Origin: Thiothrix litoralis
GTDB taxonomy: Bacteria; Pseudomonadota; Gammaproteobacteria; Thiotrichales; Thiotrichaceae
Assembly (NCBI RefSeq): GCF_017901135.1
Contig: NZ_CP072801.1
Span: 1,116,001 to 1,180,000 of the forward strand
DNA: 64,000 nucleotides
Direction: 5' to 3'
Part shown: piece by piece, positions 29,717-50,896 of the stretch
Layout: the number at the start of each line of letters is the position of its first letter
Position numbering within the stretch: the stretch's first letter is position 1
The notes under the pieces: generated by a model
Database searches by the model: none
What the model was told of the DNA's origin: nothing
The model's input: the letters and a program-made list of their open reading frames with translations, nothing else
Program-made: the position numbers and the translations under genes

Positions 29717-29920
29717 ATGATGAGTTTACTGGCGGCTATCGGTTTTGTACTGGTGCTGTTTGGCATTACCACCCTAATCATTGGCATCGTGCGCCATTTT
29801 TTTCCATTCGTGGACGAATACATCCCCGAAGAATTCAAAAAGCCACTGACCATCCAGTTTGCTGCATACTACCTGCTGGGGGGTTTGCTGTTGCTACTGA
29901 TCCAGCCTACCTCGACTTAG
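29717..29920 (+). CDS. Small two-helix membrane protein
   Basis: 67 residues: two hydrophobic helices (LLAAIGFVLVLFGITTLIIGIV and IQFAAYYLLGGLLLLLIQ) flank the polar loop PFVDEYIPEEFKKPL. AGGAA lies 9 bases upstream of the ATG. It trails the MoxR cluster and may belong to it. I recognise no family; its stop overlaps the convergent lipoprotein gene by 4 bases. Confidence 0.65.
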   Translation: MMSLLAAIGFVLVLFGITTLIIGIVRHFFPFVDEYIPEEFKKPLTIQFAAYYLLGGLLLLLIQPTST

Positions 29921-30300
29921 AACTTGTACTGCCATTCCACCCGGTCACGCTTCAAGCGCCAATGCGCCTTGCTGGACGAGTGACCATTGGCAAACAATTT
30001 GCCTGACAGGTTATCGTAAAAATTTTCCCGCACATTGTTCTGCAAACGCTCTTTCAAGCGAGACTCGCTACGCACCGCCGTCTTACAATCACGCATCAAC
30101 AGGTTGCTATTGGCACATAAACGTTGTTCCAGCAGCATATCATTGCGTATCTCATTGGGACGCAGCGCAAACGGTTGTGCCATCAAGCGGATAGAATCAT
30201 AGGGCAAAGACGACGGTGGCGTACCGCACGCGGTTACACCCACCATCGTTGCTGACAGCAGTAAGCCCTTTACTGCCATCATTTTCATAGTCGTTGTCAT
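29917..30300 (-). CDS. Putative lipoprotein
   Basis: About 127 residues. Basic N-terminus and hydrophobic stretch (MKMMAVKGLLLSATMVGVTAC) end in a lipobox-like V-T-A-C, so Cys is the likely lipid anchor. The mature part is charged and contains two more cysteines (LCANSN, DCKTAV) that could pair. ATG at 30300 is preferred because GAGG lies 5 bases upstream. No family recognised. Confidence 0.6.
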   Translation of the reverse strand: MTTTMKMMAVKGLLLSATMVGVTACGTPPSSLPYDSIRLMAQPFALRPNEIRNDMLLEQRLCANSNLLMRDCKTAVRSESRLKERLQNNVRENFYDNLSGKLFANGHSSSKAHWRLKRDRVEWQYKF

Positions 30301-30354
30301 AAACACCTCGCATTCCGGCGCATGTTACCCTTAACACACTGAAATGGCTATTTT

Positions 30355-33300
30355 TTATACAGATAGTTTTTCCTCTATCGCCAGTATTGCCATCACCACC
30401 GGCTGCAATTGCCGTTTTTCTTCCTGAAACTCGCCGAGCATCGTCCGCAGGAAGTTCAAATGCTCGTTAATGAAGCGTAATTGCCGGGGCGCTACACCAT
30501 AACTAATCGCTTGCACGTACTCCGCCACAACTTTTTGCACTTGCGTCACCTCATTCAGGCGTGAACCAACGATGTAATACAGCAGGCTGTATTCCGCCCG
30601 CGTAATCCCAGGACAGAAAGCACCCGTCCCTCTCACCACCTCGGCACATTGCCGTACCTGATCCAGCCAGTGCTTCAGTTCCTGCCGATCCAGTTGTTTC
30701 ACATCCCCGCGCAGGTAGCGCACTACCTTGCACGTCAGCCAGTTGATCAGCGGATAAGCTGCAATGGCATGGGTTTCCTGCAAAGCAAACTCGTGCGCCC
30801 GCTTATAGGCCTTTTCCATTTCCAGCAAGGCACGGGCGCGGCCTTCCCCGCTCACCATCATCGCCTGCCGCTTCCAGAATTTGCCGACTTCCTCAAAGCG
30901 TTGCAGGCTATTCCCTAGACCATCCAGCAACTGGAGGGTTTTCAGGCTGCTTACCATCAAATCAGCCGGGGAAGCGGCTATGCGTGCAGCGGGTGCATCC
31001 ACACTACCCTGCGACCAAGCCAGCGCCCACGCGGTTTGCAGGCTTACCTTGTCTTCCAGTAAAATCACCGGGTAATCAGCCTGTGGCGAATTCAGCGCTG
31101 CCTCATAAGCATCCAATGCAGGGGCGAACATCTCCAACTTGCCATAAGCCCGCCCCAATGCATATAGAATTTCCGCATGACCAAGCCATTCAGCAGGAAC
31201 TGCCCGATGCAATTGCTGCAAGCGTTCCTGCAACCACGCCACATCACTAGCCTGCGCGGTGTCGGCAGCATTGATCAGGTTCTGTAATTCAGCCACCACT
31301 TCAACCTCGGCAACGAAACGCCAAGTATCCGCCGTCGCGTCTCCCCCGCTGCTGCTGGGTTGGCGGCTCAACAACTTGTAATCAGGGTCGCCGTAACACT
31401 GGTAAGCCCCCCAAGTGTTGCCATTCGGGAATTGTTGCCAGGTTTCGCGCCGCGCCATCAATACCGCCATGCCAAACGGGTAGCCTTGCAACAGTGCGTT
31501 GTAACACTGTTCCGCAAATACCTTGGCTGCATTATCATCAATTGCCCAACCTGCCGCTATGATAGCCCTCACACCCATACGGATTAATTCTTGCGCCAGA
31601 CTCGCCGCCAATTTGCTGCGATCCTGGGTCAATGATGCCTGAATATCGGCTTCCATAAAATCCATTTGCGCCAAATGGCAACAGTTGATGAAGGCCAATT
31701 CCGGCACTTTGCGCATTTGCCCAATTTCCACCGGAGTAAGGAAAATGCCATCGCCCAACACCATGCCGCTGACTTCCAGATCGCTGTCCTTATCCGGTTT
31801 GTAGCGGTATACCCCGTGCCCCGCCAGATGCAGCACGCGGTAATCCGCGATATTCAGCGCCTTGAGGATGGATTGCGGGTCTGTGCCAATCTCGCGTCTC
31901 ACTTGGGTAAAACCACCCGCTTCCAACAGTTTGGCAACGGTTTCGGCTTCATGCTTAGCGGCAGGCAGGCGCACAAACTCACCCCCCACGGGCGGGTCGC
32001 CAATCACCAGCGCGGAACGGTCAACCGGATTCACCACTCGCTGGCGATATTGCCCCACCTGCAACTGACGCAACAAGCCAAAACGTACTGCCAACGGTTG
32101 CGACTCGTGGTCAAGGCGGTTGTACAGCAACTCCCACGGGTACGCCGATGAAGCACTGTCCAGCACCATCACCAAATTTTCAGCATTCGGCGCTTGCTCT
32201 TTCATGGCCGCTGGCAACAGCAATTCAAACAAGATTTTGCCAATATCCGGGTCGTCGCTGCTGGAGCTGATCGCCTTGTCGATGAACTGGTCAACCAGTT
32301 TACGCTGGGTAGGCTGCAACACCATTTCTGCCCGCGCCTTATCGGTCAGGGCGGTATATTTCAGGCCGCTGTCACTGGCTTCCACCTGAAGACGCCGCCA
32401 CCAACCGGGCGGATCGTTGTACATCACCCGGCGACGTTTACCCGGCAAGTATTGCATCAGGCTCTTCACGGTAAAATCCGTGCGGAATTCCGGTAGCAGC
32501 ACAAAATCCTGCACCAGCCTTGCCGCCTCCACCGCACGGTCTTCATACAACTCGATGAATTCCACCACCTGTAAGCGCAAACGCAAACCGCGCTCACTCT
32601 TGTCCAGCGCTTGATTCGCCTGAGCAATCGCCCGCAAGATCGCGGTAATTGAATCTGCCAGCGTCACGCTGCCACCGCCTACCGTACCGATCAGCAAGGT
32701 CGCCACATGCACCGGCACGCTGTCACCATCCGTTGAAGTATTCCCGGCACTTTCCAGCGCTTCCTGGATTTTCAGGGAATAATCCATCATCGCCCGCGTA
32801 AAGCTCGCTGTCATCTCCCCCGGTGTCAACTTGCCGACTTCGCCCAAGCCCACAATCACCGCGCCCCCCGGCTTTCTGCCCGGATTCAGGAACACATGCG
32901 ACGTACCCGATGACCCCGGATACAAACCCATGCGGTGCAACTCACTCATGCGCCCATCCAGCCGTTTGTCCAGCAAGGCTTCCGCACTGAGGATGGAATC
33001 CCCCTCATAATGCCCCACCACCACCGGGTGCGCCACTTGCTCCAGATTGCCATGCACCACGCGTACTTCCACGGACGGGCGTACCTCCTCCTGCGTCATG
33101 CGGGTGTGATAACCCAGCGCCGCTGCCAGCAATTCAGCTTCATCCGGGAATAATTCGCTACGAATCTCAGGCAACCACTGATCCCCCGCCTTGCCAATCG
33201 CTGGCGGTTTCTGCTCCAACTGACGCGATACGCCATCATCCAGCAAGTATTGCAAGGTCTGGAAATACTCGCTGTGGCTCGCCATGCGCCCGTGTTCCAC

Positions 33301-35682
33301 CGGCATGAACCAGGTCGGCACAGACTCAGGCAGGCTGCCCCACAAGCTCACCCCGTCACCCTCCCCGCTGGCATGGAAACGCCACCCGCCATCATCCTGA
33401 ACCTGCACATCATCCGGCGTCAGTGCTGAACGCCCGTACAGGTAAATCAGCCGCTGGGCATCCAGTTCCAGCGCCCGCCATTGCTCACGCACCTGAAGCG
33501 CCCCCGCCAGCAAACCACGCCCCGGCCATTCCGCAAAAGCATCACCCAATAGCGCTTGCCAACGCGCTTCCTGCAAATACGCCGCAGGCAATAACTCCAG
33601 CACACCGGGGTAACGCGCAAATTGTTGCGCCAGCCGTTGGTTTTCGCCCTCATCCATACTGCCGTCAAGCAGGTTTAGCAAACGCACCAAACGGTGTTTC
33701 CCCAACAGGATTTGCACCGCCGCATACGTGCCCTGCAACGGCGTGCCCAACATCACCACGCGGCAATCGGCTTCCTCACGCAAACGTCGCCACACAGCGG
33801 GTGCTTCACTCATCATCGCCAGCGCCACCAAGCCGCCGCTCGAATGTGCCAGCAGGCGGATCACTAGCTTGTTGCCCGCCGCTTTCGCCGCATCCAGCTC
33901 CTGTTCCAGCGCATCCCCCAGACGGCGGCCTGTTTCCGCGTAAGAGCGCCGCCAGTCGTAGTCAAATTCCACCAGCTTGTGGCTATCGTCCAGCATATCC
34001 AGTAAGGGGCGGTACAGTGTTTCCAATACGCCAACGGCTTGTATTCCCGCACTATCCATGCCCAACCGGGAAAAATCGCCCCAACCCAGTGCCGACATAT
34101 TCAGCCATACCGGGTTATCCCCCGCCTGCAAGGTTGACCCCATAAAACCGGGCAGGAAATACACTGTGCTGCTTTTAGCCTTCTCCTGCCCACGGCTGGA
34201 ACGCGCCGCCGGACGTACTACAGGCGCTTCCGGCAGCAACGGGCGCAAGCGCAAATCGGTATCCGGGTGCGTCAATGCACTGATCAGGCGTTCGCGCACA
34301 TCACCCTTGCGGAAATAACCAAAATGGCTGCTATCATCGCTTTGATCCAGATAAAAACGCATTCCCTGCAACCGCCGCGCCCCACCGTACATCCCGGCGG
34401 TATTCATCACAAAGTCGTTTTCTTCGCCGAAAAAACGCTGCATCACCCACGCATTGAAACTGCCCAGCAGGTTGGATGCCTTCATATCCCCGGCAATCAC
34501 GGTAAGGTCAGAATCCAGTTGCACATCCGGGCGATTCAACAAACGGATCAGGGGTGAACCGGGCATCATGGCCTCGATCCCCGGCAATGCTGCGGGAGCG
34601 GTGCGCTGGCGGGCAGTCGCCATCAGTACCATACGCACAAATTCCGCCAGATTCTGGTAGCGGGGCGCAGGGATTAGATTCAAGACATTGAACACCAGCG
34701 ACAAGTTATCTTCCAAGCCTGCCGCCGCCAGCACCGTGCCACGCCCAGGGCAGGCGACCCGCACAAAACGTTCCACCCGGATTTGCTTATCCTTGAGCAA
34801 GATTTCGATTTCCTGCAAACCTTCCCGATCGCTGCGGCGAGCGTCGCTGGCAAACATCTGGCGTTCAGCCGGGGTGAAAATGTCATCGCTATCCAGAAAC
34901 TGCTCGGCGGAATCGCGGGTTTTGCGTTTCAGCACCCCTTGGCACAGCAATTCCCCGACCAGACCACCGCGTGAATGGCTGATCACATGCAAACGGGTAT
35001 GCGGCGGCAACAAACGCAACACTTGCAGCGCATTTTGCACCGGGCTAACTGCGAGGGTGTGGTGTTCCAGCGTGAACACTTGCTGGCAATAAGGGGCAAA
35101 CAAACGCTGTAACCACGCAGGCGCGTTGTAGCCTTGGCGCGATTCCCAGAGTTCGCCGAAACTGCCATCCGTGTTAGAAAACGTACCGTGCAGGAACAGC
35201 AGCACCGGCTTGGTGGTGTCGATGTCCGCCGCTTGGGTGATCCGTTGCAAATCGAGCTTGCCGGGGTTGGCGCAACGGTATATGCCCGGCTGGGCAATCT
35301 TGCGGGTTTCCAGCTTGGTCATCAGGGCGGTCAATGTCTGCGTAGCGTCGCCTACTGGGTCGACTTGCAGCAGTCGCAGGTATTTCAGCACCAGACCGAC
35401 CGTGTTGCGCTGTTTGCCTACGTCAAAACTTGTGGGAGTCAGCGGGGCTTGTGCCTGTAAATCCCCCGCCCGCACCCAGCGTTTGAAACCGCCCTCGAAT
35501 TCGAGTTCTACCAGCGTTGCATCCGCCACATCCTTGAGTTCGAGCGTTGCGCCCGTGCTGCGCACGGCTTCCAGCGTCACCTCCCGCTGGCAGGTGATTG
35601 TCAGAATGTCGGCGTAAGCATTGCTGGTTTTGTATGACAAGTCTTGCCCGGTTAACTTGCCACTGATCGTGATGGAATCCAT
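30355..35682 (-). CDS. Giant multidomain protein: two alpha/beta-hydrolases, M17-N-like, CHAT protease, TPR
   Basis: 1775 residues, no signal peptide. Domains in order: (1) alpha/beta-hydrolase ~150-470 with FLHGTFSN and nucleophile elbow SHSRGG (S237); (2) LCAT-like hydrolase ~500-830 with oxyanion motif LPGFMGST, YDWR, and elbow AHSSGG (S614); (3) ~865-1060, a segment resembling the N-terminal domain of M17 aminopeptidases (VGHYEGD, AVIVGLGE, LLIGTVGGG); (4) CHAT caspase-like domain ~1160-1440 with LHLAGHG (H1289) and FINCCHLAQ (C1335); (5) TPR-like helices from ~1495 to the end. CHAT proteases cut protein partners in some defence systems; lipase domains could attack membranes. It is 35 bp downstream of a DUF4143 ATPase and near a CRISPR locus. 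Role inferred only. Confidence 0.8.
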   Translation of the reverse strand: MDSITISGKLTGQDLSYKTSNAYADILTITCQREVTLEAVRSTGATLELKDVADATLVELEFEGGFKRWVRAGDLQAQAPLTPTSFDVGKQRNTVGLVLKYLRLLQVDPVGDATQTLTALMTKLETRKIAQPGIYRCANPGKLDLQRITQAADIDTTKPVLLFLHGTFSNTDGSFGELWESRQGYNAPAWLQRLFAPYCQQVFTLEHHTLAVSPVQNALQVLRLLPPHTRLHVISHSRGGLVGELLCQGVLKRKTRDSAEQFLDSDDIFTPAERQMFASDARRSDREGLQEIEILLKDKQIRVERFVRVACPGRGTVLAAAGLEDNLSLVFNVLNLIPAPRYQNLAEFVRMVLMATARQRTAPAALPGIEAMMPGSPLIRLLNRPDVQLDSDLTVIAGDMKASNLLGSFNAWVMQRFFGEENDFVMNTAGMYGGARRLQGMRFYLDQSDDSSHFGYFRKGDVRERLISALTHPDTDLRLRPLLPEAPVVRPAARSSRGQEKAKSSTVYFLPGFMGSTLQAGDNPVWLNMSALGWGDFSRLGMDSAGIQAVGVLETLYRPLLDMLDDSHKLVEFDYDWRRSYAETGRRLGDALEQELDAAKAAGNKLVIRLLAHSSGGLVALAMMSEAPAVWRRLREEADCRVVMLGTPLQGTYAAVQILLGKHRLVRLLNLLDGSMDEGENQRLAQQFARYPGVLELLPAAYLQEARWQALLGDAFAEWPGRGLLAGALQVREQWRALELDAQRLIYLYGRSALTPDDVQVQDDGGWRFHASGEGDGVSLWGSLPESVPTWFMPVEHGRMASHSEYFQTLQYLLDDGVSRQLEQKPPAIGKAGDQWLPEIRSELFPDEAELLAAALGYHTRMTQEEVRPSVEVRVVHGNLEQVAHPVVVGHYEGDSILSAEALLDKRLDGRMSELHRMGLYPGSSGTSHVFLNPGRKPGGAVIVGLGEVGKLTPGEMTASFTRAMMDYSLKIQEALESAGNTSTDGDSVPVHVATLLIGTVGGGSVTLADSITAILRAIAQANQALDKSERGLRLRLQVVEFIELYEDRAVEAARLVQDFVLLPEFRTDFTVKSLMQYLPGKRRRVMYNDPPGWWRRLQVEASDSGLKYTALTDKARAEMVLQPTQRKLVDQFIDKAISSSSDDPDIGKILFELLLPAAMKEQAPNAENLVMVLDSASSAYPWELLYNRLDHESQPLAVRFGLLRQLQVGQYRQRVVNPVDRSALVIGDPPVGGEFVRLPAAKHEAETVAKLLEAGGFTQVRREIGTDPQSILKALNIADYRVLHLAGHGVYRYKPDKDSDLEVSGMVLGDGIFLTPVEIGQMRKVPELAFINCCHLAQMDFMEADIQASLTQDRSKLAASLAQELIRMGVRAIIAAGWAIDDNAAKVFAEQCYNALLQGYPFGMAVLMARRETWQQFPNGNTWGAYQCYGDPDYKLLSRQPSSSGGDATADTWRFVAEVEVVAELQNLINAADTAQASDVAWLQERLQQLHRAVPAEWLGHAEILYALGRAYGKLEMFAPALDAYEAALNSPQADYPVILLEDKVSLQTAWALAWSQGSVDAPAARIAASPADLMVSSLKTLQLLDGLGNSLQRFEEVGKFWKRQAMMVSGEGRARALLEMEKAYKRAHEFALQETHAIAAYPLINWLTCKVVRYLRGDVKQLDRQELKHWLDQVRQCAEVVRGTGAFCPGITRAEYSLLYYIVGSRLNEVTQVQKVVAEYVQAISYGVAPRQLRFINEHLNFLRTMLGEFQEEKRQLQPVVMAILAIEEKLSV

Positions 35683-35717: not shown

Positions 35718-37034
35718 TTAGTACAAAAAGGGGGGGTTGTACAATAGAAACCGCCATGCGGGGATGACCTCGATAGTGCCCGCTTTAAGCACCATTTGCT
35801 CTTCTTCCTGGCGTGTCACGATGATTCCCGTTGGCAGATTCAACTCCATCATCGCCTCCTCCAACGCGGCTATTTCACGTTTGCGGGTTGTCGGGTTAAC
35901 CAACGTCTCGCACACCTGAACCAATAAACGGGGACGGTCTTGCCACTGCGCGATGAAATCTACCTCTCGACCACCCTTAGTTTTGTAGTAGAAAATATCC
36001 GGTGTGACTCGCCGCAGCGCGGTAAACACCAGATTTTCAAGCAAATGACCGGTATTGACCAAAATCCCCGATGAAACCGATGTCACCATCGCATGGTCTA
36101 TGCAGTAAATTTTTTTAGGGTTGGCATTAGCACGGCTAAGGGATGCATCGAACAGTCGCACAGTAAACAAGAAATAGGCATCTTCAAACCATGCCAGATA
36201 ATCAGCCACCGAAGAGTGAGGTACTTTATGCCCCAGCGATTTCAAATACCCCGTCAATTTGTTCAGGGAATACAAAGATGCCGTGTTATCAACCAACCAA
36301 TGTGCTAAATCCGTCAGTGCCTTGGGGTGAGAAATATCATGGCGTTCCACCAGATCACGAAACAACACCGCGTGAAAATAGTCCTGATGGATTTTTACCC
36401 GCAAATGCCGTTCCAAACTCGCCACTTCGGGGAAACCGCCAGCCTCCCAATATTGCTCGAAAGCATTCTGCACGAACAAACGCTGCTTGGTGGAAAGCAC
36501 CCCATCCCCACCGTCCAACCCTAGATAATCCAGATATTCACGGAAAGAGAATGGGAACACCTCCCACGATAGCGCCCTGCCCCGCATTTGGGTGGCGATT
36601 TCCTTGGAAAGCATCCTTGCTGAAGATCCAGTGATGTACACCTCGCAATTCTCGGTACGCATCAGCCGATCCACAAACGGCTCCCAACCATCAATCGCCT
36701 GAATTTCGTCGAAAAAGCAGTATACCTTTTCACTGTTTTTCTTGTCGGGGTAGAGTGAGTAATACGCATCAAGAATCACCCCCAAGCCACTTTGCTGAAG
36801 CCCGTGCAAACGGTCATCGAAGAAGTTCAGGTACAGAATATTCTGCCGTATTACGCCTTTCCCCAGCAGCCCCTGCATAAGCTGAAACAGAAAGGTAGAT
36901 TTACCGCTACGGCGCACACCGATACAGACAGTGGCCTTGCCGTGGAGAGGCGTAACATCCAAATGGCGCGGAATACCTGAAAAAACTTCAATCTCTTGAA
37001 AATCCAATATTATTTCTTGGAGAATCTTAATCAT
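35718..37034 (-). CDS. AAA ATPase with DUF4143 domain
   Basis: 438 residues. N-terminal AAA_14 module: Walker A GVRRSGKST (residues 39-47), Walker B YCFFDEIQ, sensor ITGSSARML. The C-terminal DUF4143 module has an endonuclease-like fold with TKGGREVDFIAQ ... LLVQVCE, the usual D/E-x-K-like site (final residue not Lys here, so catalysis is doubtful). Such ATPases are common in accessory regions and mobile islands. It reads into the CHAT protein gene after 35 bp, so both may be co-transcribed. Its promoter should lie in 37035-37166. Confidence 0.85.
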   Translation of the reverse strand: MIKILQEIILDFQEIEVFSGIPRHLDVTPLHGKATVCIGVRRSGKSTFLFQLMQGLLGKGVIRQNILYLNFFDDRLHGLQQSGLGVILDAYYSLYPDKKNSEKVYCFFDEIQAIDGWEPFVDRLMRTENCEVYITGSSARMLSKEIATQMRGRALSWEVFPFSFREYLDYLGLDGGDGVLSTKQRLFVQNAFEQYWEAGGFPEVASLERHLRVKIHQDYFHAVLFRDLVERHDISHPKALTDLAHWLVDNTASLYSLNKLTGYLKSLGHKVPHSSVADYLAWFEDAYFLFTVRLFDASLSRANANPKKIYCIDHAMVTSVSSGILVNTGHLLENLVFTALRRVTPDIFYYKTKGGREVDFIAQWQDRPRLLVQVCETLVNPTTRKREIAALEEAMMELNLPTGIIVTRQEEEQMVLKAGTIEVIPAWRFLLYNPPFLY

Positions 37035-37166: not shown

Positions 37167-40100
37167 CTCATAACCCCTCATGGGGATTCGTAACGCGTTC
37201 GCGGTGTTGCGCCTCTTCCTGTTTCATCAGCTCATAACCCCTCATGGGGACTCGTAACATCCGCAACGCTGGAAAAGCCGCGCAATACGCCGCTCTCATA
37301 ACCCCTCATGGGGATTCGTAACCACGGATGGATGGCTGAGTTCCAATCCGCACACGTTCTCATAACCCCTCATGGGGATTCGTAACTCAGCATCTTTTCG
37401 GCATCAGCCCGAGCTGTTAACTCTCATAACCCCTCATGGGGATTCGTAACAGTGCCTAGCGGGACTGCCACTTATGACAAATTCGGCTCATAACCCCTCA
37501 TGGGGATTCGTAACGCAAATGGCAGCGGCAGGGCACGATTACGGCTACTGCTCATAACCCCTCATGGGGATTCGTAACCTTTCAGGGTCACTACAACCCC
37601 TTTTCCTTTTATCACTCATAACCCCTCATGGGGATTCGTAACCCATGCCTGAGCCTGCACCAACTCCGACGGAATATCCTCATAACCCCTCATGGGGATT
37701 CGTAACTCCTGTATGCATTGCCGCAGTCCCAGAATTGGTTAACTCATAACCCCTCATGGGGATTCGTAACCCTGTTGCTTGCGTCTACGCTTGTTTTTGG
37801 CGGCATCTCATAACCCCTCATGGGGATTCGTAACACAACGCGCCGATCTTGTCCGCCAAACCGCTGCACTCTCATAACCCCTCATGGGGATTCGTAACAC
37901 TTTTTTAACTGGCTAACTGACGAGGCATATTCAGCTCATAACCCCTCATGGGGATTCGTAACTCAGGCATGGGCGTTGCTCAAAACCTCTACGGCATGCT
38001 CATAACCCCTCATGGGGATTCGTAACCCCCCACAGTTGCGGCGGTGATGATTGCCCATGCTCCTCATAACCCCTCATGGGGATTCGTAACTCATCGCCGT
38101 ATTCGCGGCAATATTCGCGTATTTCTTCTCATAACCCCTCATGGGGATTCGTAACCTAAATTCTTCTTTTCAATTCCAAGCCTTACTGGAACTCATAACC
38201 CCTCATGGGGATTCGTAACTGCCGTCGGAACAGATGAACCGCGAATAGCTGCCACCTCATAACCCCTCATGGGGATTCGTAACTTCTGCCCGCGCCTAAA
38301 AAAATTGGGGCATCAACGCCTCATAACCCCTCATGGGGATTCGTAACGCTGACATTGGCAAATACGGTGCTCAACAATCTATTCTCATAACCCCTCATGG
38401 GGATTCGTAACTGTGCTGCACACCCCAATCATCAGCCCATCACTTGCCCTCATAACCCCTCATGGGGATTCGTAACAAGGATTCGCCCCCGACCTCGACC
38501 CGACAACTCCTCTCATAACCCCTCATGGGGATTCGTAACTAGTACCAGCGATAAAGTAGTGTACCCCGTCTGCAACTCATAACCCCTCATGGGGATTCGT
38601 AACCAGTTGGTCACCAGTGCCAAGCCCCACCTTCACCGTCTCATAACCCCTCATGGGGATTCGTAACTCTGTGGCGGTGGGGGCGACACGACGGGTGGCG
38701 ATGCTCATAACCCCTCATGGGGATTCGTAACTTGTTGACCAAGCCATGGACGAAAGTGAGGTTTACCTCATAACCCCTCATGGGGATTCGTAACTCTTGA
38801 ACGAATGGCGGAAAAACAACCCTATTAAGTCTCATAACCCCTCATGGGGATTCGTAACCTTTATCTGCTGCTACCTTGCTGCGCTCGTTCTCAACTCATA
38901 ACCCCTCATGGGGATTCGTAACCTTTTGTCACGACATAGTTGACGTAATCCGATTCTTCTCATAACCCCTCATGGGGATTCGTAACGGGGTGGGTGCTGG
39001 TAGCCACGGCTGCAAAATGCACCTCATAACCCCTCATGGGGATTCGTAACTAAATCTGGTAGTACCGTCTACATCAAGCTTAAATGTCTCATAACCCCTC
39101 ATGGGGATTCGTAACCTGCTTTGTCCGCGCTACAAGTAAGTGCTGTGCAGCCCTCATAACCCCTCATGGGGATTCGTAACGTAAAAACGTGACGGTGCGC
39201 CTTGTCGGGGTCGACTCTCATAACCCCTCATGGGGATTCGTAACGCGCCTTGCTGACGCCCTAGTGTTAGCAACCCGTACATCTCATAACCCCTCATGGG
39301 GATTCGTAACAAAACCAGCGCTTGATATTAATGCCAATGCTGCGAGCTCATAACCCCTCATGGGGATTCGTAACGAACTTGCCAGCATGTTTGGACTCGA
39401 TCAATCTCACTCATAACCCCTCATGGGGATTCGTAACCGACCGTTTGCGCTCATATGATTTTTTTGTTGACATCTCATAACCCCTCATGGGGATTCGTAA
39501 CAAGCAAAACCAATTCGACGCGGGCGAAGTAGCACACTCATAACCCCTCATGGGGATTCGTAACAAATCACGGATTTGGCGAAAAACAGTCAACAACATG
39601 CTCATAACCCCTCATGGGGATTCGTAACCAAGCCGAGGATGTTATCTACCACCAGAAATTCACTCTCATAACCCCTCATGGGGATTCGTAACGTCGTAAC
39701 CCTGTCCAGCCGCTACGCCCATCAATCCCTCATAACCCCTCATGGGGATTCGTAACTGATGGGCAGGAATCAGAAGCGACACTTGCCGAACTCTCATAAC
39801 CCCTCATGGGGATTCGTAACCAGGCTGTTGGTGAGCGTATCCCGTTTGCTGGTACTCTCATAACCCCTCATGGGGATTCGTAACTATACTTACGTCATCG
39901 CGCTCAGAGTTTGCAAACGCTCTCATAACCCCTCATGGGGATTCGTAACAATGTGAGCGTTGGCTGCTGCGCTTGCCAGCACATCCTCATAACCCCTCAT
40001 GGGGATTCGTAACAATGGATGTTTTCCAGATAAAACAGGCGGTCACGCACTCATAACCCCTCATGGGGATTCGTAACTATCGGCAACTATACGCAAATCC

Positions 40101-41683
40101 TGAAAAAGACAGCCTCATAACCCCTCATGGGGATTCGTAACGGATTTTTGTAAGCGAGTCAGTCGCGTCGTACTCACCTCATAACCCCTCATGGGGATTC
40201 GTAACACTCACGGTCACTTGACGGCTGGAACTATCATGGAGCTCATAACCCCTCATGGGGATTCGTAACTTTAGTCCTGTTGGTTATTTAATTCAATGTT
40301 TGCAAGCTCATAACCCCTCATGGGGATTCGTAACCGATATAGACGAATGCGACCGCCTTGCTGATGCGCTCTCATAACCCCTCATGGGGATTCGTAACAA
40401 ACGTCACGATTTCGGCTTTACCGGCCTCAGCTTTCTCATAACCCCTCATGGGGATTCGTAACGAGCTGGATATTAAAGCCTATGAGGCCGAAACCGCACC
40501 TCATAACCCCTCATGGGGATTCGTAACCCTTGTTCGATCAGATTCCCGTCCTTGTCGTGCTCATCTCATAACCCCTCATGGGGATTCGTAACGCCAGCCT
40601 GATTAATGACTGCCTGCTACAGAAAAACCTCATAACCCCTCATGGGGATTCGTAACATGTCAATTACTCCTTAATTAACTCCCGACTAAGTTCTCATAAC
40701 CCCTCATGGGGATTCGTAACGATTTTGTGGCTATGGGTAACGGTTGCACTTGTTGCTCATAACCCCTCATGGGGATTCGTAACAAAACTAGCGAGAAAAG
40801 AAGAATTAACACACAGCAACTCATAACCCCTCATGGGGATTCGTAACCCACTTTTCCGGCGGCGGACTGATGTCAGCAAGCACCTCATAACCCCTCATGG
40901 GGATTCGTAACCTGATATAACAACTGACAACGTATCTGTGCCCGACTCTCATAACCCCTCATGGGGATTCGTAACGATTCATAGCCCTCAACGTAAGCGG
41001 CCCTCTCTGCAACTCATAACCCCTCATGGGGATTCGTAACGCGGACAAAGCGGCTGAACGGCTGTATGCGCGTTATCTCATAACCCCTCATGGGGATTCG
41101 TAACGCCACGTACTGCCACGCGGGTCTTCTGAGAATCCGTCTCATAACCCCTCATGGGGATTCGTAACCATTCTTTCCGCTCCAACGGGGCAAGGATGAT
41201 AGACACTCATAACCCCTCATGGGGATTCGTAACTCTAAAAGCCTATCTTCAATACTGATCTCAGCGTCTCTCATAACCCCTCATGGGGATTCGTAACTCT
41301 GTATGCGTTTGATGGCAGCCACCCGCGCTCTATTCTCATAACCCCTCATGGGGATTCGTAACATTGATGAAATGGGCGCGGAAGGATTGCCCGGCGCTCT
41401 CATAACCCCTCATGGGGATTCGTAACGCGCAAAATGCCATGATGTTTGTCCATCTCCCATTATCTCATAACCCCTCATGGGGATTCGTAACGCTCGATGC
41501 CATGCGCCGTATCATTGGCAATGTCGTCTCATAACCCCTCATGGGGATTCGTAACGATACGTTCACGCGCCCGCTCAACAATGCCTTGCAGCTCATAACC
41601 CCTCATGGGGATTCGTAACCTTTGCCCGGAATCCACGCTGACCCGGCGTCATGCCCTCATAACCCCTCATGGGGATTCGTAAC
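37167..41683. CRISPR. CRISPR array, 71 repeats and 70 spacers (by hand count)
   Basis: A 28-bp repeat beginning CTCATAACCCC on the plus strand, with the palindromic core CCCCTCATGGGG and the end GGGGATTCGTAAC, is repeated 71 times at ~64-bp intervals with spacers averaging 36 bp. Repeats look identical except the second (37231-37258), which has C for T at 37251. The array lies 123 bp past the cas2 end of a type I-D cas operon. Orientation is unresolved: on the plus strand the 3' end TTCGTAAC resembles the common 8-base crRNA tag ending in AAC, while synteny with cas2 and the variant repeat near the left end favour minus-strand transcription. Confidence 0.98.
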
Positions 41684-41805
41684 GCCCGATTTCAAGCCAA
41701 TTTTGGGTATGACCGCTTGAATCAGACAGTGTAAACATAGCATGAAAGAGTGATAGATATTCATCAAAGGTAGGGAATTTTTACTTCAGTGGCGGGCGAA
41801 GTTGC
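41684..41805. promoter_or_regulatory. Region between array and cas2; alternative leader or trailer
   Basis: 122 bp without a gene. It has an inverted pair TTCAAGC / GCTTGAA close to the last repeat and is less AT-rich than the opposite flank. If the array follows cas2 on the minus strand this is the leader; otherwise it is the trailer. No convincing promoter is seen on either strand. Confidence 0.4.
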
Positions 41806-42108
41806 CTACAAAACCGAGAAATCACGGCGATGGTCATCAACGGGTGTCTGTTTCAGCTCACCCTTGCCAGAGTCACTTTTAGACAGATGATTGACCTCGA
41901 CATTCTGGCGGTTGGCAGCACTGATTTGTGTTACCCGATCACCGGGGATCATAAGCTTGCCCAGCTCACGCCGCAATTTAATCGCCTGCGCATCAGTAAT
42001 GTCGCCAGTAAACACCGAATACTGGTCATGATTCAGATAGCGACGTAGCAGCTTCTTGAATTTGTCGGTGCGTTTGGCTTCGACATCGTAAGTCATCAGC
42101 ATAAACAT
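41806..42108 (-). CDS. cas2: CRISPR-associated protein Cas2
   Basis: 100 residues. The ferredoxin-like start MFMLMTYDVEAKRTDKFKKLLRRYLNHDQYSVFTGDIT carries the conserved Asp after the first strand. The C-terminal tail is longer and more polar than a minimal Cas2. With Cas1 it forms the spacer integrase. Its ATG follows the cas1 TGA with no gap, and GGAGGG in the end of cas1 serves as ribosome site. Confidence 0.93.
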   Translation of the reverse strand: MFMLMTYDVEAKRTDKFKKLLRRYLNHDQYSVFTGDITDAQAIKLRRELGKLMIPGDRVTQISAANRQNVEVNHLSKSDSGKGELKQTPVDDHRRDFSVL

Positions 42109-43077
42109 TCATACCCTCCGTTTGAACGCTTCATATTCCCCGGCTCCCAGCACTTCGCGTTCCAGCCCTAGTGCCTCACGGTAAATCCAATTGCGGAAAC
42201 TGCGCCCCTGATACTGTTCTTCCAGCCGCAAGGAGAATTGTTCCGCCACATGCCGCCGCCCAGTTTCCGACAGCAAACAAACGTTGTCATGCTGCTCAAA
42301 CCAACTTTCATCCAACATCCGCCGTTGCACCATGCGGAAAATCAGCATATCCGTCAGCACCGGCTTAAAAGGCTCCGCCAGATCCAAACTCAATGACGCA
42401 CGCCCATAACCGGGGGAATGCAACACACTGAACGTTTCCTCCAGATGCGTCTTGCTGATTTCATGCCGCACCACGGTATAAACCAGTTGGTTCAAGAACG
42501 ACAACAAGCAATTGATCGGGTTATTCGGCGGACGCCGTACCCGCTTACCAAAATCCAGTTCCGCATGAATAGCAGGCCAAGCAGCGTAATAGTATTGATG
42601 CAACTGCCCCTCAATCCCCATCAAAGTGTTGGTATCCACCGCCCGTGCAATAGTCGCCAACAGCTTCTGCATATCGAACACCGGCTGTTTCATCGCCTCA
42701 TTACCGCGATACTGGTAATAACGCAAGTTCGCCAACATATTGTGAGCTGCACCCCGTACAACCTCCCGTGCCACACTCATGCGTCGCACATCATCCAGCA
42801 GTAATTCGGCCTGTTTGAGCTTCACCTTACCCGCCGGATTGTGATCGTAAGGCTCAAATGCCCCCTTGAAATAGCCGTAGTAATCAAACACCGACAGGCG
42901 TACCCCGTGTTTGCCACACAAGCCCAACAGGCGCGAATTAAGACGGCTTTCCGACAGCAATACCACATGCGACAACTTTTCAATCGGCAATGAGCGCACT
43001 TGATCGCCCATTTTGATTTGCAGCGTGTTTTCGTGCTGCCTGAGCTGCGCTTCGCGTGAAATGAACAACGTTTCCAT
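42109..43077 (-). CDS. cas1: CRISPR-associated endonuclease Cas1
   Basis: 322 residues; the integrase that inserts new spacers. The metal-binding Glu is in GIEGQLHQYYYAAW, His in VLHSPGYGRASLSLDL and Asp in the following DLAEPFKPVLTD. The N-terminal beta-domain starts METLFISREAQLRQHENTL. ATG at 43077 is used because GAGG stands 5 bases upstream; a longer frame overlaps cas4. Gene order cas4-cas1-cas2 is the normal adaptation module of type I-D. Confidence 0.95.
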   Translation of the reverse strand: METLFISREAQLRQHENTLQIKMGDQVRSLPIEKLSHVVLLSESRLNSRLLGLCGKHGVRLSVFDYYGYFKGAFEPYDHNPAGKVKLKQAELLLDDVRRMSVAREVVRGAAHNMLANLRYYQYRGNEAMKQPVFDMQKLLATIARAVDTNTLMGIEGQLHQYYYAAWPAIHAELDFGKRVRRPPNNPINCLLSFLNQLVYTVVRHEISKTHLEETFSVLHSPGYGRASLSLDLAEPFKPVLTDMLIFRMVQRRMLDESWFEQHDNVCLLSETGRRHVAEQFSLRLEEQYQGRSFRNWIYREALGLEREVLGAGEYEAFKRRV

Positions 43078-43084
43078 CATATCC

Positions 43085-43633
43085 TCAATCAAAACCACAG
43101 AAGGCAGCCAGTGAACAGGTCTCACACAAGCTGATTTTTTTGGCGACTGGAACCGCTTCCAGCTCGCCCAACTGCTCCAATCGTCCCGAAGCATCCCAGA
43201 GTTTCTGCAAACGAGCCGCATCCAGCACCACTTCACGGCGGCGGCGTGAACTCAGCACATGCGTGTAAGCCCGCCACTGTTTGCCGGTACTGATCGACAA
43301 CATCAGGGCATAAAACGCCGTTTGGTTGCTGGAAGCCTCCACTGCGCCCCCCGTCCCCTTGTTTTCGTACACAATGCACTCGTCCCACTCAATCCGGTCA
43401 GGAGCCAGCCCAAACAGACCGCGCACCGAGTGATCACGTTGATAACTGGTATCATGCAACGCACTACCCGTCTGTACCCGTGAATACCATTGGGCAAAAT
43501 TCACCTTGTGCATGTACATCCAGGCGCGGCGCTCGCACAACTCCACATGCTGAAAATGCAGGCCATGCAGGTTGAGGCGTTCGACCCGCTCCAGAAAGGC
43601 TTGGGCATGTTCCCAAAAGAAAGCTTCGGGCAT
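43085..43633 (-). CDS. cas4: CRISPR-associated exonuclease Cas4
   Basis: 182 residues, RecB-like nuclease that trims prespacers and helps choose the PAM. Cys in ELCERRAW and three in SLCETCSLAAFCGFD form the iron-sulfur cluster ligands. Nuclease motifs are GSALHD, the Asp in RIEWDECIVYENKG (E-x-K) and QTAFYALML. It starts 9 bases after cas3. Confidence 0.93.
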   Translation of the reverse strand: MPEAFFWEHAQAFLERVERLNLHGLHFQHVELCERRAWMYMHKVNFAQWYSRVQTGSALHDTSYQRDHSVRGLFGLAPDRIEWDECIVYENKGTGGAVEASSNQTAFYALMLSISTGKQWRAYTHVLSSRRRREVVLDAARLQKLWDASGRLEQLGELEAVPVAKKISLCETCSLAAFCGFD

Positions 43634-43642
43634 GGCAGCACC

Positions 43643-45637
43643 TCACAGCACCAAACTGGTGGTTGAAGCGGAAAGATCGGTATCGTTACCTGGTATAAGC
43701 CCCGTCAAGCTAACCAGCAACTCGGCGGCTTTCATGGCTTCTGGGTAATCATCCCACGCGGCTTCGGCATCCATATCCCGCTTGTTCTGCAAATGCTTGA
43801 CCCATTCCCGTAACAAACCAGCACTGGCTTCCAGCTCTCCGGTGCGTTTGGTATGCGGGAAATACACCATCAGACGACGACTGGCACGGTTTTTCTCATC
43901 CAACAGGTAATGTTCAAGGTCAGCCTGTAGCTGGAAAGACAGCTCATCATTGGCATCGTACTGTCCTGTGATTCGGGTCATGATGTCAGTTTCTCGCTCC
44001 AGCCAAACACGATCCACTAGCAAACGCCGACCATCTGCTTCAATGACCTTGACCCGTAGCCCGATATTCCTCAGGTTGAGTGCTTGGGCAAATAACTGTT
44101 CATGCCATTGGGTAGCGGACTCCCGGTAATAATCATCGGTTTCCAGCGCGGAATACTGTTTCAGCAGGGCATAGATGTGTTTACTGCTGGCGGGCTGGTG
44201 CTGCAACAGGTGTGCGCGGCGGTGTCTATGGCTGCTTTTGTGCCCTAGCAATACCTGCCAGTACAAGCCGCTGGTATACACAGCCTGTTGCGGCAATGAA
44301 CCGAAATACAGTGTTTCGCCTGTTTCACCCTTGAATTGTTGCTGGGCTTCTCGACTGAGCACTTCAGTCAGTTCACGGATGGCAACCTGCTGGCTCTGGT
44401 GTGCGCTGATCCAGCTACCCAATTCCCGCAACCACGGATGGCGATCTTCCAAAGCAGCATCGGTACGCACCACCACGGTTCCATCTTCTCCACGCCGTGC
44501 AGCCCGCCCGTAGCGTTGCAGGAAATTCATCGGCGCAAACCCTGGCTCCATCAACATGACATTGGCAGCACGGAAAGTTACCCCCATTTCCACACTGGCA
44601 GTAGCAATCAGGACATTGAAATCGTCGGGGTTCTGCCGCCGCCCGGTATGGAAGCCGTAACCTGACTGGCTGTTGTCCCCGCTATCGTCAATGCTGTTGA
44701 TAACCAGCACGTTATCTGCGGCGATACCTGCACCTTTCAGCGACCGCAGCAAAGCAGGCATGTCACGTTTCAAGGCAGCAAGGGCGTTGTAGATCAGCAC
44801 TACCTGCCGGTTCTGTGCAACTTCTGCCTTGACCAGTGCTAGATTTTGCTCCAACACCGCAGGCATACCCGGTAAGGATTCCAATACAAGTCGGACATCC
44901 CCATGCAATGCCCGTCCGGTGTCGGTGATGACTTCATGCAATTCAGCAATCTGGGTTTCAGGCACACCCAATGTCACCAATGTCGGCTTAACATCCAATG
45001 GGGTAGCAGATAGCAGGCTGACTTTAGCACCTCCGTAACCCGTCGTTCCCCCATCGGTTGGCACACTGGCAAGTTTGGCAAACAGTGCAGCCAGCCCAAA
45101 ACCACGCGCTTCAATAGTGTGGAATTCGTCAAACACAATGTGGTCAAAATCATCCAGCACATCGAATACGCTCGTACCTGCTTGCCCCTTGTCCAGCCTA
45201 TAACGTTGTAAAAGCTGGCTGACCACTTCAGGAACCGCAATAATCATTTCCCCACCGGAACGGGTAGCATCCAATGCCTGCATCTGCCTGATCCGATAAC
45301 CACGGATATTGGCGATACCTTGCTCACGTAATACGGCTGTTTGGTCGGAACTCCAGACCTGCACCTTCTTTTCTGCCACTTCCTTTTGCCATTTGGCATT
45401 CACCACCAAATCGTCAATCAGGCTGGCGGCAATGTTTTGTGCCAACCGGCGGGTCGGCACGATAAACAGGATGCGCTGATCCTGTAATAAGGCTTTCTGG
45501 AAAGCGTAGGTTTTGCCTGCCCCGGTTGGGGCATCCACAATCCGCACCCGTTTAGGCTCATGCAGCAAGGCATGTTGCAGTGGTGACAAACCATTCTCGC
45601 GTTGTGCCACACAATGGCGGGTGACGGTCAGTTCCAT
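43643..45637 (-). CDS. cas3: CRISPR-associated helicase Cas3 (type I-D, no HD domain)
   Basis: 664 residues, superfamily 2 helicase. Walker A APTGAGKT lies near residue 40, motif II is VFDEFH, motif III LLSATP, and motif VI QRYGRAARRG. There is no N-terminal HD nuclease domain, as expected in type I-D, where the HD domain sits on Cas10d. It overlaps csc1 by 10 bases. It unwinds target DNA after Cascade binding. Confidence 0.93.
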   Translation of the reverse strand: MELTVTRHCVAQRENGLSPLQHALLHEPKRVRIVDAPTGAGKTYAFQKALLQDQRILFIVPTRRLAQNIAASLIDDLVVNAKWQKEVAEKKVQVWSSDQTAVLREQGIANIRGYRIRQMQALDATRSGGEMIIAVPEVVSQLLQRYRLDKGQAGTSVFDVLDDFDHIVFDEFHTIEARGFGLAALFAKLASVPTDGGTTGYGGAKVSLLSATPLDVKPTLVTLGVPETQIAELHEVITDTGRALHGDVRLVLESLPGMPAVLEQNLALVKAEVAQNRQVVLIYNALAALKRDMPALLRSLKGAGIAADNVLVINSIDDSGDNSQSGYGFHTGRRQNPDDFNVLIATASVEMGVTFRAANVMLMEPGFAPMNFLQRYGRAARRGEDGTVVVRTDAALEDRHPWLRELGSWISAHQSQQVAIRELTEVLSREAQQQFKGETGETLYFGSLPQQAVYTSGLYWQVLLGHKSSHRHRRAHLLQHQPASSKHIYALLKQYSALETDDYYRESATQWHEQLFAQALNLRNIGLRVKVIEADGRRLLVDRVWLERETDIMTRITGQYDANDELSFQLQADLEHYLLDEKNRASRRLMVYFPHTKRTGELEASAGLLREWVKHLQNKRDMDAEAAWDDYPEAMKAAELLVSLTGLIPGNDTDLSASTTSLVL

Positions 45638-46257
45638 TGTTGCACCTCATGCAAGGCATCCTTGGCGGGCATCCGCTGAGTCAGTTGCAACCCGTAAAGC
45701 AAGTAACGCTCAACAGACAGTTCACGTCCAAATAAGGCCGCCGTAGCCGCATTCAACCGCACCTGTTCAACTTTCACAGGCCGTAGGCGTAACATCCCAT
45801 TACGGTGTAGGCCGATACGGATAACCAGTTCATCCTGCCCACTGTAAGCAAATGGATCAAAACCAAATAATGCGCCCGTAAAGATCACACCCGGTGGTAC
45901 TTCCTGCGTAGTGAAAAAATCCTTGAGATTGCCTTTTTTCACCACATCCTGAATCCGGCGCTTATAGCCCGCCTCTTCGGTCAGATTTAGCCGCCTGACT
46001 ACCGGGGACAACAGGCGCGGATGATCTGTTGTCAACACGGAAGCCCGCCACGGCATGGCATCCAGATCACGGCGGTAATCCTTTTTGGGTAAGCAGACAC
46101 TGGAGCGCATCATGCCCAATGTTGCCGCCAGCCCAAACATCAGCGCATGGTCACTGACCAGTTCGGGCAGGGTTGCCGTGCCACCCTGTACCATCAGGGA
46201 GTGGTAAGCAAACGGCGTCAGGGTTTCTGCCTGAATGCCGGTGATGATGGCTTTCAT
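45628..46257 (-). CDS. csc1: Csc1 (Cas5-type subunit of type I-D Cascade)
   Basis: 209 residues, a Cas5-group RAMP protein that caps the 5' end of the crRNA in the effector. The N-terminal KAIITGIQAETLTPFAYHSL, mid-region LPKKDYRRDL and later VPPGVIFTGALFGFDPFAYSG fit Csc1. GGAG lies 8 bases upstream. The call leans strongly on operon position between csc2 and cas3. Confidence 0.88.
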   Translation of the reverse strand: MKAIITGIQAETLTPFAYHSLMVQGGTATLPELVSDHALMFGLAATLGMMRSSVCLPKKDYRRDLDAMPWRASVLTTDHPRLLSPVVRRLNLTEEAGYKRRIQDVVKKGNLKDFFTTQEVPPGVIFTGALFGFDPFAYSGQDELVIRIGLHRNGMLRLRPVKVEQVRLNAATAALFGRELSVERYLLYGLQLTQRMPAKDALHEVQQWN

Positions 46258-46266
46258 GGCAAGCTC

Positions 46267-47250
46267 CTATTGAAACCACTGGTCAAACAGCCCTGCTACT
46301 TTGGGTTGTGCCTGCTTGTATTGCTGCTCCAGTTCGCTACCACTTTGGTTGAACGCTGCAATCAGGTCAGCCTGCCATGCGGCAACCTCATCCCCCTGAA
46401 TAGCAAGGTCATGGGCAGCTTGCAGCAACTCATGCAGGCGGGCTTTGGCTGCAAGCACGTCGCTACCATCCCTACCTTGTAAACCACGCAACAGTTCGTA
46501 AGGTGAAGTAATCGCCTGTTCAAACTTGCCTCCATACAAACCCACCACATGGGTACGAATATTGATGCCAGTCACGGAAGTCTGCCCGCCATAGCTACCC
46601 GCCATGCCCACACTCAACAGCAGGTGTTTTAAACCGATTTCAGGCAGTACCTGCCCACGGGTGCTGAGCACCTGTACCATCAAGGTTCCCGGTTTGATGA
46701 AATGGCGGGTAAACAGATTGTCGCTGTTCTTTTTGCTTTCGGCATCAAACAACGTACCGTCTTCCATTGCCCGATTGTGGAAAGTTTCATCCACGCACTT
46801 ATCCTTCGGTAACAGGCTAAGTGCATCGGAATAGTTGACGGCTGCACGTACCGGCAAAACCCGGTTGTCGTAGTTCGCAGAATCCCCAAATACCAGCGTA
46901 TTCAGGTCGAACGCATCCGAAGGGTTTTGGCCTTTATACAAAACAGTCTTGTTTTGTGGCAAACGCCCCCCTACACCTAATGCCCGCAGGATTTGCAAAC
47001 CACGGTTACGCTCAATGTATTTGAATTTGTTGGGTACGGCACGAACATACAAATCGTCCAGCCATTCAATATCGGTGATTTCCTGCTCGGCATTGCGGAA
47101 GACTACCGGGGCAACCGCTTCGCGAATCAGCACCAAACTGACAGACCCCAGATTTTTCAGTTTGGGGTGGATATAGCTTTTCTTGTCATCAATTGGGCTT
47201 TCAGTCGTCAGGCCATCAATGCTTGCCAAATAAGGGGCGAGTGCTTTCAT
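46267..47250 (-). CDS. csc2: Csc2 (Cas7-type backbone subunit of type I-D Cascade)
   Basis: 327 residues. Cas7-group RAMP that polymerises along the crRNA spacer. The start DKKSYIHPKLKNLGSVSLVLIREAVAPVVFRN and the segment FTRHFIKPGTLMVQVLSTRG ... GMAGSYGGQTSVTGIN agree with Csc2. It overlaps cas10d by 4 bases (ATGA). Confidence 0.92.
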   Translation of the reverse strand: MKALAPYLASIDGLTTESPIDDKKSYIHPKLKNLGSVSLVLIREAVAPVVFRNAEQEITDIEWLDDLYVRAVPNKFKYIERNRGLQILRALGVGGRLPQNKTVLYKGQNPSDAFDLNTLVFGDSANYDNRVLPVRAAVNYSDALSLLPKDKCVDETFHNRAMEDGTLFDAESKKNSDNLFTRHFIKPGTLMVQVLSTRGQVLPEIGLKHLLLSVGMAGSYGGQTSVTGINIRTHVVGLYGGKFEQAITSPYELLRGLQGRDGSDVLAAKARLHELLQAAHDLAIQGDEVAAWQADLIAAFNQSGSELEQQYKQAQPKVAGLFDQWFQ

Positions 47251-50159: not shown

Positions 50160-50896
50160 CGCCCAATCCCCTCTTCCAACAACCCCAGACAGCCAAATCC
50201 ACTGCGGGTCTTTTCCCCAATTCCGGCATACCACGCCAACCGCAAGTCTTCCTCACTGCCTTGCAATAACACGGGCGCTTGCATCCCGATGACAAAGCTT
50301 TTGCGCCCATCCTGAAAGATTTTCAGGTTGACCAGCACCGAATGTTTGGGGTTAGCACGCAAATACAGGGAATCAGGGTGAAGTTCCAGTTTGACTTCCC
50401 GACCTGCCATAAAAGACAGTTTGCGATTGATGATCTCGCTTAAACGTAGTTCCGGTGCATCCAGCTTTTGATGCCAGTGTTTGTTTTTACCGGGGTGCGT
50501 TTCGTCCCTGAGAACCAACGGGGAATAAAAAATACAACCCAATTGAGTCTGTTGTGGCAGGATGGGGTCAGGTTCGATATGCACACTAGCCGCCGAGAAA
50601 TTGACAGATTCCGCGTCCCAACGCCGTTTGACAATGTGTTCCGGTTTGATACGCGACAATACCCGTGCCAGTTCAGCGTTGGGAGTAGAAACAATCAAGC
50701 CATGGGCAAAACCGTTATGACCACGATGCCAGCCGAGCACCGCAAAATTCCATGGCTTGGCCTGGTAGCCGATGATGTCCGAACTGTTTGCACCTGCTTC
50801 AACCAGTGCATTAACTAACGCATCATGGATAAGATCCTGATGGGAATAAACCTGTAGGGGTGAGACCTTGGGAAGTTGTATACGAAGTCGTAACAT
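50156..50896 (-). CDS. cas6: CRISPR RNA endoribonuclease Cas6
   Basis: 246 residues, RAMP-fold enzyme that cuts the repeat to release crRNAs. The C-terminal Gly-rich loop GIGEKTRSGFGCLGLL is the Cas6 hallmark; N-terminal residues MLRLRIQLPKVSPLQVYSHQDLIHDAL start the first ferredoxin fold. ATG at 50896 follows AGGA at 7 bases. It is the first gene of the cas operon, divergent from the WYL gene. Confidence 0.9.
   Translation of the reverse strand: MLRLRIQLPKVSPLQVYSHQDLIHDALVNALVEAGANSSDIIGYQAKPWNFAVLGWHRGHNGFAHGLIVSTPNAELARVLSRIKPEHIVKRRWDAESVNFSAASVHIEPDPILPQQTQLGCIFYSPLVLRDETHPGKNKHWHQKLDAPELRLSEIINRKLSFMAGREVKLELHPDSLYLRANPKHSVLVNLKIFQDGRKSFVIGMQAPVLLQGSEEDLRLAWYAGIGEKTRSGFGCLGLLEEGIGR

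Follow-up and report, generated by a model that had tools for sequence, protein, structure and literature searches.

Two of the systems most like the gene described here couple a protease of the caspase superfamily to a hydrolase or to a TPR region. According to Kaur et al. 2020, the caspase-superfamily VMAP components always have a neighboring α/β-hydrolase gene, and joint action of the two is suggested (PMC7159879). The first-pass annotation of this DNA knew of no described system with its domain order, a claim that was too strong given those pairs of caspase components and α/β-hydrolase genes. The Craspase TPR-CHAT protease of type III-E has a Lys in place of separase D2151 and cuts Csx30 after Leu; separase cuts after ExxR, and its D2151 recognizes the P1 Arg (PMC9729208). 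Bacterial orthocaspases cleave after positively charged (basic) residues (PMC6426788).

The window is a 64,000-nucleotide stretch of Thiothrix litoralis contig NZ_CP072801.1, and its minus strand holds a single intact open frame of 1775 codons at 30355-35682. The plus-strand frame across the same interval has many stops. The reading frame together with Pfam and profile matches bore out the earlier description of one 1775-residue chain with two hydrolase modules, an M17-N-like segment, a CHAT domain and TPRs, of which the TPRs are weak; S237, S614, H1289 and C1335 had been named correctly. All parts of the gene given below are on the minus strand. Residues 1-92 (35407-35682) form a fast-evolving N-terminal variable domain, a proposed pro-segment delimited by Arg motifs at R41 and R92. 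Lipase 1 (residues 93-494, 34201-35406) contains S237, D423 and H453, has a DUF7379 α/β-hydrolase match at residues 161-255 (Pfam, E = 1.1e-32) and matches bacterial lipases weakly by profile (E = 7e-4). Lipase 2 (residues 495-841, 33160-34200) is weak by single-sequence search. The family profile matches group XV phospholipase A2 (PLA2; E = 1.3e-11) and LCAT (E = 1.8e-8) over the DWR motif (residues 576-578) and the triad of S614, D776 and H797, which identifies the module as LCAT/group XV PLA2-like. The boundaries of both lipase modules are those suggested by the Arg motifs.

The Peptidase_M17_N-like segment at residues 888-961 (32800-33021; Pfam, E = 1.4e-5) resembles the aminopeptidase N-terminal domain 3jru (E = 3e-5). 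The CHAT caspase-like domain spans residues 1148-1432 (31387-32241; H1289, C1335 and D1383) and was found by Pfam (PF12770, E = 3.6e-28); it resembles 8tl0, a CHAT protein of known structure (E = 0.002). A score of 99 bits against a cut-off of 24 and the His-Cys dyad place it among CHAT domains, with proteolytic activity as a prediction. The C-terminal helical region, residues 1440-1775 (30358-31365), is a proposed sensor with weak TPR matches beyond residue 1484, such as TPR_1 at 1503-1530 (E = 0.006, under the Pfam cut-off), and the same region of the homologue L062 has a TPR-S match (E = 7e-9). AlphaFold models of residues 1-1145 and 870-1775, made from an alignment of the window protein and four close Thiothrix proteins only, had pLDDT values of 34.4 and 42.5, too low for the models to be used; the C-terminal part alone reached 60-92, as helices. 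Searches of the protein against PADLOC-DB (E = 0.01) gave no match and against NCBIfam no strong match.

Catalytic residues were compared across family members of 29-95% identity. The CHAT residues H1289 and C1335 are invariant in 62 of 62 and then 21 of 21 full-length members (83/83), and D1383, D423, H453, D576, D776 and H797 are also invariant in the 62. The invariant D1383 follows a conserved Trp in a stretch that we take to match the one containing separase D2151, a candidate equivalence only. The lipase serines are nearly as constant. S237 is replaced by Gly in four of the 62 members, and S614 by Gly or Ala in four; the 21 further members have one S614G and otherwise keep the serines and the other residues compared, so that S237 is retained in 79/83 and S614 in 78/83. 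The catalytic residues are thus conserved over the family, a point in support of the first-pass annotation. Among 27 members it had seemed that at least one lipase serine is always kept, an idea refuted in the larger set by L141, which has lost both. Whole-gene dN/dS against three Thiothrix orthologues is about 0.08-0.10, and that of CHAT is 0.01-0.07. By this measure the gene is under strong purifying selection (dN/dS about 0.09). CHAT is the slowest evolving part and its His and Cys never vary, which marks it as the least dispensable one.

Orthologues were present in 15 of the 15 other Thiothrix genomes searched, one of them truncated (G009), and this distribution and the low dN/dS indicate a real gene rather than a chance open frame. 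The gene is core in Thiothrix, with neighborhoods that differ between genomes; the closest named copy, in T. lacustris DSM 21227, is 94-95% identical. A second copy, a paralogue of 2000 residues, occurs in four of the 15 genomes. The truncated copy (L050, 8393-12217) encodes a 1274-residue form without lipase 1, and an upstream remnant is absent. Synonymous divergence to the T. lacustris gene (L036) climbs from 0.04 at the N terminus to 0.98 at the C terminus, a gradient that suggests recombination of the lipase half. Beyond the genus the family is patchy, with homologues in 4 of 398 genomes sampled at the level of the phylum, 13 of 369 in the class, 20 of 300 in one order, 31 of 201 in one family and 1 of 197 in another. 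Homologues are plasmid-borne in Paracoccus, Azotobacter, Ensifer and Rhizobium. None were found in the phages and viral contigs searched, and on that basis a phage origin was rejected. Among the natural variants are proteins with M17N-CHAT-TPR alone and a split arrangement in which a DUF7379 lipase and CHAT are encoded by adjoining genes (L064, L065).

The variable segments that flank the lipases contain conserved arginines (a slash marks the candidate cut). R41 (35560-35562) lies in a variable loop as VR/S and is Arg in 94% of 52 nr members, and R92 (35407-35409) precedes lipase 1 as QR/N, usually R/G elsewhere. Few conserved residues of the chain stand as isolated as these two, which reach 94% conservation against an average of 27% for the neighbors of R41 and 27-31% overall. 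R494 (34201-34203, AAR/SS) and a second candidate, R497 (34192-34194, SSR/G), lie between the lipases, and R841 (33160-33162, EIR/SE) follows lipase 2. R494 failed as a single conserved column in a larger alignment, and a segment test was used instead, in which members having Arg followed by Ser, Gly, Ala or Asp in a given segment were counted and compared with composition shuffles. In 51 nr members the frequency of Arg-[SGAD] was 92% in the R41 loop, 90% in the R92 segment, 96% in the lipase 1-2 linker (residues 480-505) and 84% in the linker after lipase 2 (residues 822-846), giving z values of 3.6-5.7 for the four segments. Ten variable segments elsewhere in these proteins showed no excess (z = -4.6 to 2.2). 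The motif had been found on these same data, and held-out members were therefore fetched for replication: 18 new loci, drawn from further genera and families, and four fetched loci, none of them aligned before, which together yielded 19 nr members. The motif occurred in 95, 95, 100 and 95% of them at the four segments in the same order, with no excess in the 10 control segments (z = -2.5 to 1.6). The restriction of an Arg-small motif to four lipase-flanking variable segments, replicated on a held-out set, is a new observation from these alignments.

The residue before the Arg (P2) is Ala, Ser or Thr at 56% of the sites in the four segments compared with 27% of R[SGAD] elsewhere, so the motif is often [AST]-R-[SGAD]. 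This shared preference indicates that four unrelated linkers carry one motif, the outcome that would be expected from repeated cutting by one Arg-preferring protease. A usable R92 site is missing (deleted, or with Pro after the Arg) in 3 of 3 nr lineages that have S237G compared with 1 of 67 that have S237 (Fisher p = 7e-5, from three events only). Members with a dead lipase 2 retain their linker Arg. In the window copy only R494/R497 fit the strict [AST]R[SGA] pattern; its other sites are QR/N at R92, VR/S at R41 and IR/S at R841. Domain and profile matches support the fusion of a caspase-like protease to phospholipase-like modules proposed in the first-pass annotation, and the linkers resemble protease sites.

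A six-frame search identified a stand-alone Peptidase_C14 metacaspase gene with intact His and Cys adjoining the family gene, or within 1.5 kb of it, at 13 of 71 loci; there it lies upstream in the same orientation, in most cases overlapping the family gene or within 25 nt of it. The new loci had a metacaspase gene in 7 of 18 cases (six upstream, one downstream), and about 0.03 were expected from a density of 0.41 C14 genes per Mb. The total of 20 of 89 loci is well beyond chance. Mapping the metacaspase label on the tree required at least 11 changes, fewer than in shuffles, yet the label is spread over many clades. No metacaspase gene was found near the window copy. The basic-residue preference of orthocaspases (PMC6426788) agrees with the Arg motif. 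Some TIR genes are also linked to family loci. The AAA_14/DUF4143 ATPase gene on the minus strand at 35718-37034 (PADLOC candidate PDC-S01) is 35 nt upstream of the giant gene, and this gene pair recurs in T. fructosivorans (L037). A small putative lipoprotein gene (29917-30306, minus strand) lies directly downstream, is conserved in four Thiothrix species and could be an operon partner. A TGase_elicitor (PF16683) gene adjoins six copies on the same strand, upstream in L045-L048 and downstream in L060 and L062; in all five TGase_elicitor proteins examined, an [AST]R[SA]A motif lies some 75 residues into the chain and could be a substrate site. A conserved protein of about 500 residues with no Pfam match is encoded by a divergent gene near the family gene in L045-L047 and L051.

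We propose that the giant protein is a self-contained polyprotein zymogen in which CHAT, a partner metacaspase or both cut after Arg and free the lipases, a reading to which we give a probability of roughly 0.5. The TPR-like region at the C terminus, possibly aided by the M17_N-like segment, would sense a trigger and switch on CHAT. CHAT, joined by the adjoining metacaspase where one is present, would then cut after Arg in the linkers and part the N-domain, lipase 1, lipase 2 and M17N-CHAT-TPR from one another. The released lipases would attack membrane phospholipids, and the cell would most likely be killed or arrested in an abortive, conflict-type response. The placement of the Arg motif, the co-loss of R92, the metacaspase linkage and the invariant CHAT dyad support this reading, as do the resemblance of lipase 2 to phospholipases and the existence of the lipase and CHAT halves as two adjacent genes. 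Published precedent also favors it, namely the pairing of caspase components with α/β-hydrolases reported by Kaur et al. (PMC7159879) and the Craspase TPR-CHAT protease (PMC9729208). The reading is weakened by the linker Arg kept in members with a dead lipase 2, by the mostly non-strict motif of the window copy, and by a metacaspase partner that is found in a minority of loci and not near the window copy. A one-operon, apoptosis-like cascade, in which metacaspase and CHAT process the giant at the Arg sites and release two killer phospholipases, is a more tentative extension. Such a protein would amount to a caspase-activated lipase zymogen that carries its own executioner protease.

The Arg motifs could instead be structural or compositional features of the linkers, with CHAT cutting other proteins or nothing and the lipases acting within the intact chain. 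R41 could start a hairpin loop, the linkers are rich in Arg, Ser, Ala and Gly, and the Craspase CHAT cleaves after Leu (PMC9729208). We regard this explanation as unlikely because the excess over composition shuffles is confined to the four lipase boundaries, recurs in held-out members with a common P2 preference, and R92 is lost with a dead lipase 1. A rather unlikely alternative is a physiological core Thiothrix protein under proteolytic control with no anti-phage role, acting in envelope lipid turnover, a stress response or developmental filament death. Presence throughout the genus (with one truncation) in differing neighborhoods, purifying selection and the absence of copies from phages and viral contigs favor it. 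The enrichment near defense genes that the first-pass annotation proposed to look for also did not materialize: PADLOC matches were no commoner among 97 neighbor proteins than among 97 from control regions. This result favors a physiological protein and, with a core distribution, unusual for a defense gene, weakens a defense role. The patchy occurrence elsewhere (4/398, 1/197 and 31/201 genomes), the copies on plasmids and a genomic link to metacaspase genes and to some TIR genes count against a purely physiological protein. A defense or cell-death role is a plausible hypothesis.

Proximity to CRISPR was the other contextual claim of the first-pass annotation, and the locus itself is real. A type I-D locus (37167-50234; Cas10d, Csc1, Csc2, Cas3d, Cas4, Cas1 and Cas2) includes an array of 71 repeats of 28 nt at 37167-41683, 1.5 kb from the giant gene, with the AAA_14/DUF4143 gene between them. 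That the giant is the effector of this type I-D system is extremely improbable, since the window cas genes have no homologue in 31 other family loci compared, the 95%-identical T. lacustris copy among them. The missing CRISPR-Cas beside the T. lacustris orthologue points to insertion or loss at the site. Without recurrent cas linkage a role as type I-D accessory or partner was rejected, and by these comparisons the adjacency is a local accident; the genetic context that held up in part is the linkage with metacaspase genes. A secreted antibacterial lipase toxin, such as a type VI effector, is very improbable despite the lipase modules and the transglutaminase-elicitor gene beside six copies. 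Hydropathy suggests neither a signal peptide nor a transmembrane segment, secretion genes are not among the recurrent family neighbors, and a protease and a sensor in one chain suit an intracellular switch better.

Earlier work noted hydrolase genes linked to caspases in bacterial conflict systems but, to our knowledge, gave no mechanism for them. The present family fuses the caspase and hydrolase parts, and its conserved Arg sites, with R92 vanishing when lipase 1 is dead, mark where cuts would be expected. These sites make the question of killing by bacterial caspases approachable on a gel. The arrangement may offer a counterpart of gasdermin cleavage, enzymes here taking the place of pores.

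Our literature search, which was partial in coverage, found no description of this architecture or of the Arg sites, and each related system differs in definable ways. CHAT is the bacterial relative of eukaryotic separase, which has no lipases. Group XV PLA2 and LCAT share the profile match, the Ser, Asp and His residues and the DWR motif with lipase 2, but they are eukaryotic, lysosomal or secreted, and not linked to a protease. Metacaspases and orthocaspases (Peptidase_C14), encoded beside 20 of 89 copies, are partners outside the giant chain. The Craspase TPR-CHAT shares a CHAT protease with a His-Cys dyad and a TPR region; there, TPR precedes CHAT, lipases are absent and gating is by gRAMP and RNA, whereas the giant has the order lipases-M17N-CHAT-TPR (PMC9729208). 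The gRAMP and Csx30 partners and the TPR-CHAT order of type III-E are absent here, the window cas genes being type I-D, and the partner genes and motif of the giant point to Arg in contrast to the Leu cut of Craspase. The VMAP, or MoxR-vWA ternary, conflict systems are alike in coupling a caspase-superfamily protease with an α/β-hydrolase, a pairing that the giant family also has. Their protease and hydrolase are encoded separately, alongside MoxR and vWA partners, whereas the giant family fuses two hydrolases to the protease, and Arg-punctuated linkers are not mentioned in the available portion of that paper (PMC7159879). MoxR, vWA and VMAP partners are not among the recurrent neighbors of the giant family. 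MoxR-DUF58 genes at 27-29 kb of the window were rejected as VMAP partners, as they belong to an RDD-SpoIIM-DUF4129 type cluster that only the sister species shares. Gene pairs of a caspase and an α/β-hydrolase in conflict systems are therefore already described, and this family is set apart from them by the absence of MoxR/vWA, by a second, phospholipase-like hydrolase and by the fusion of these parts in one chain.
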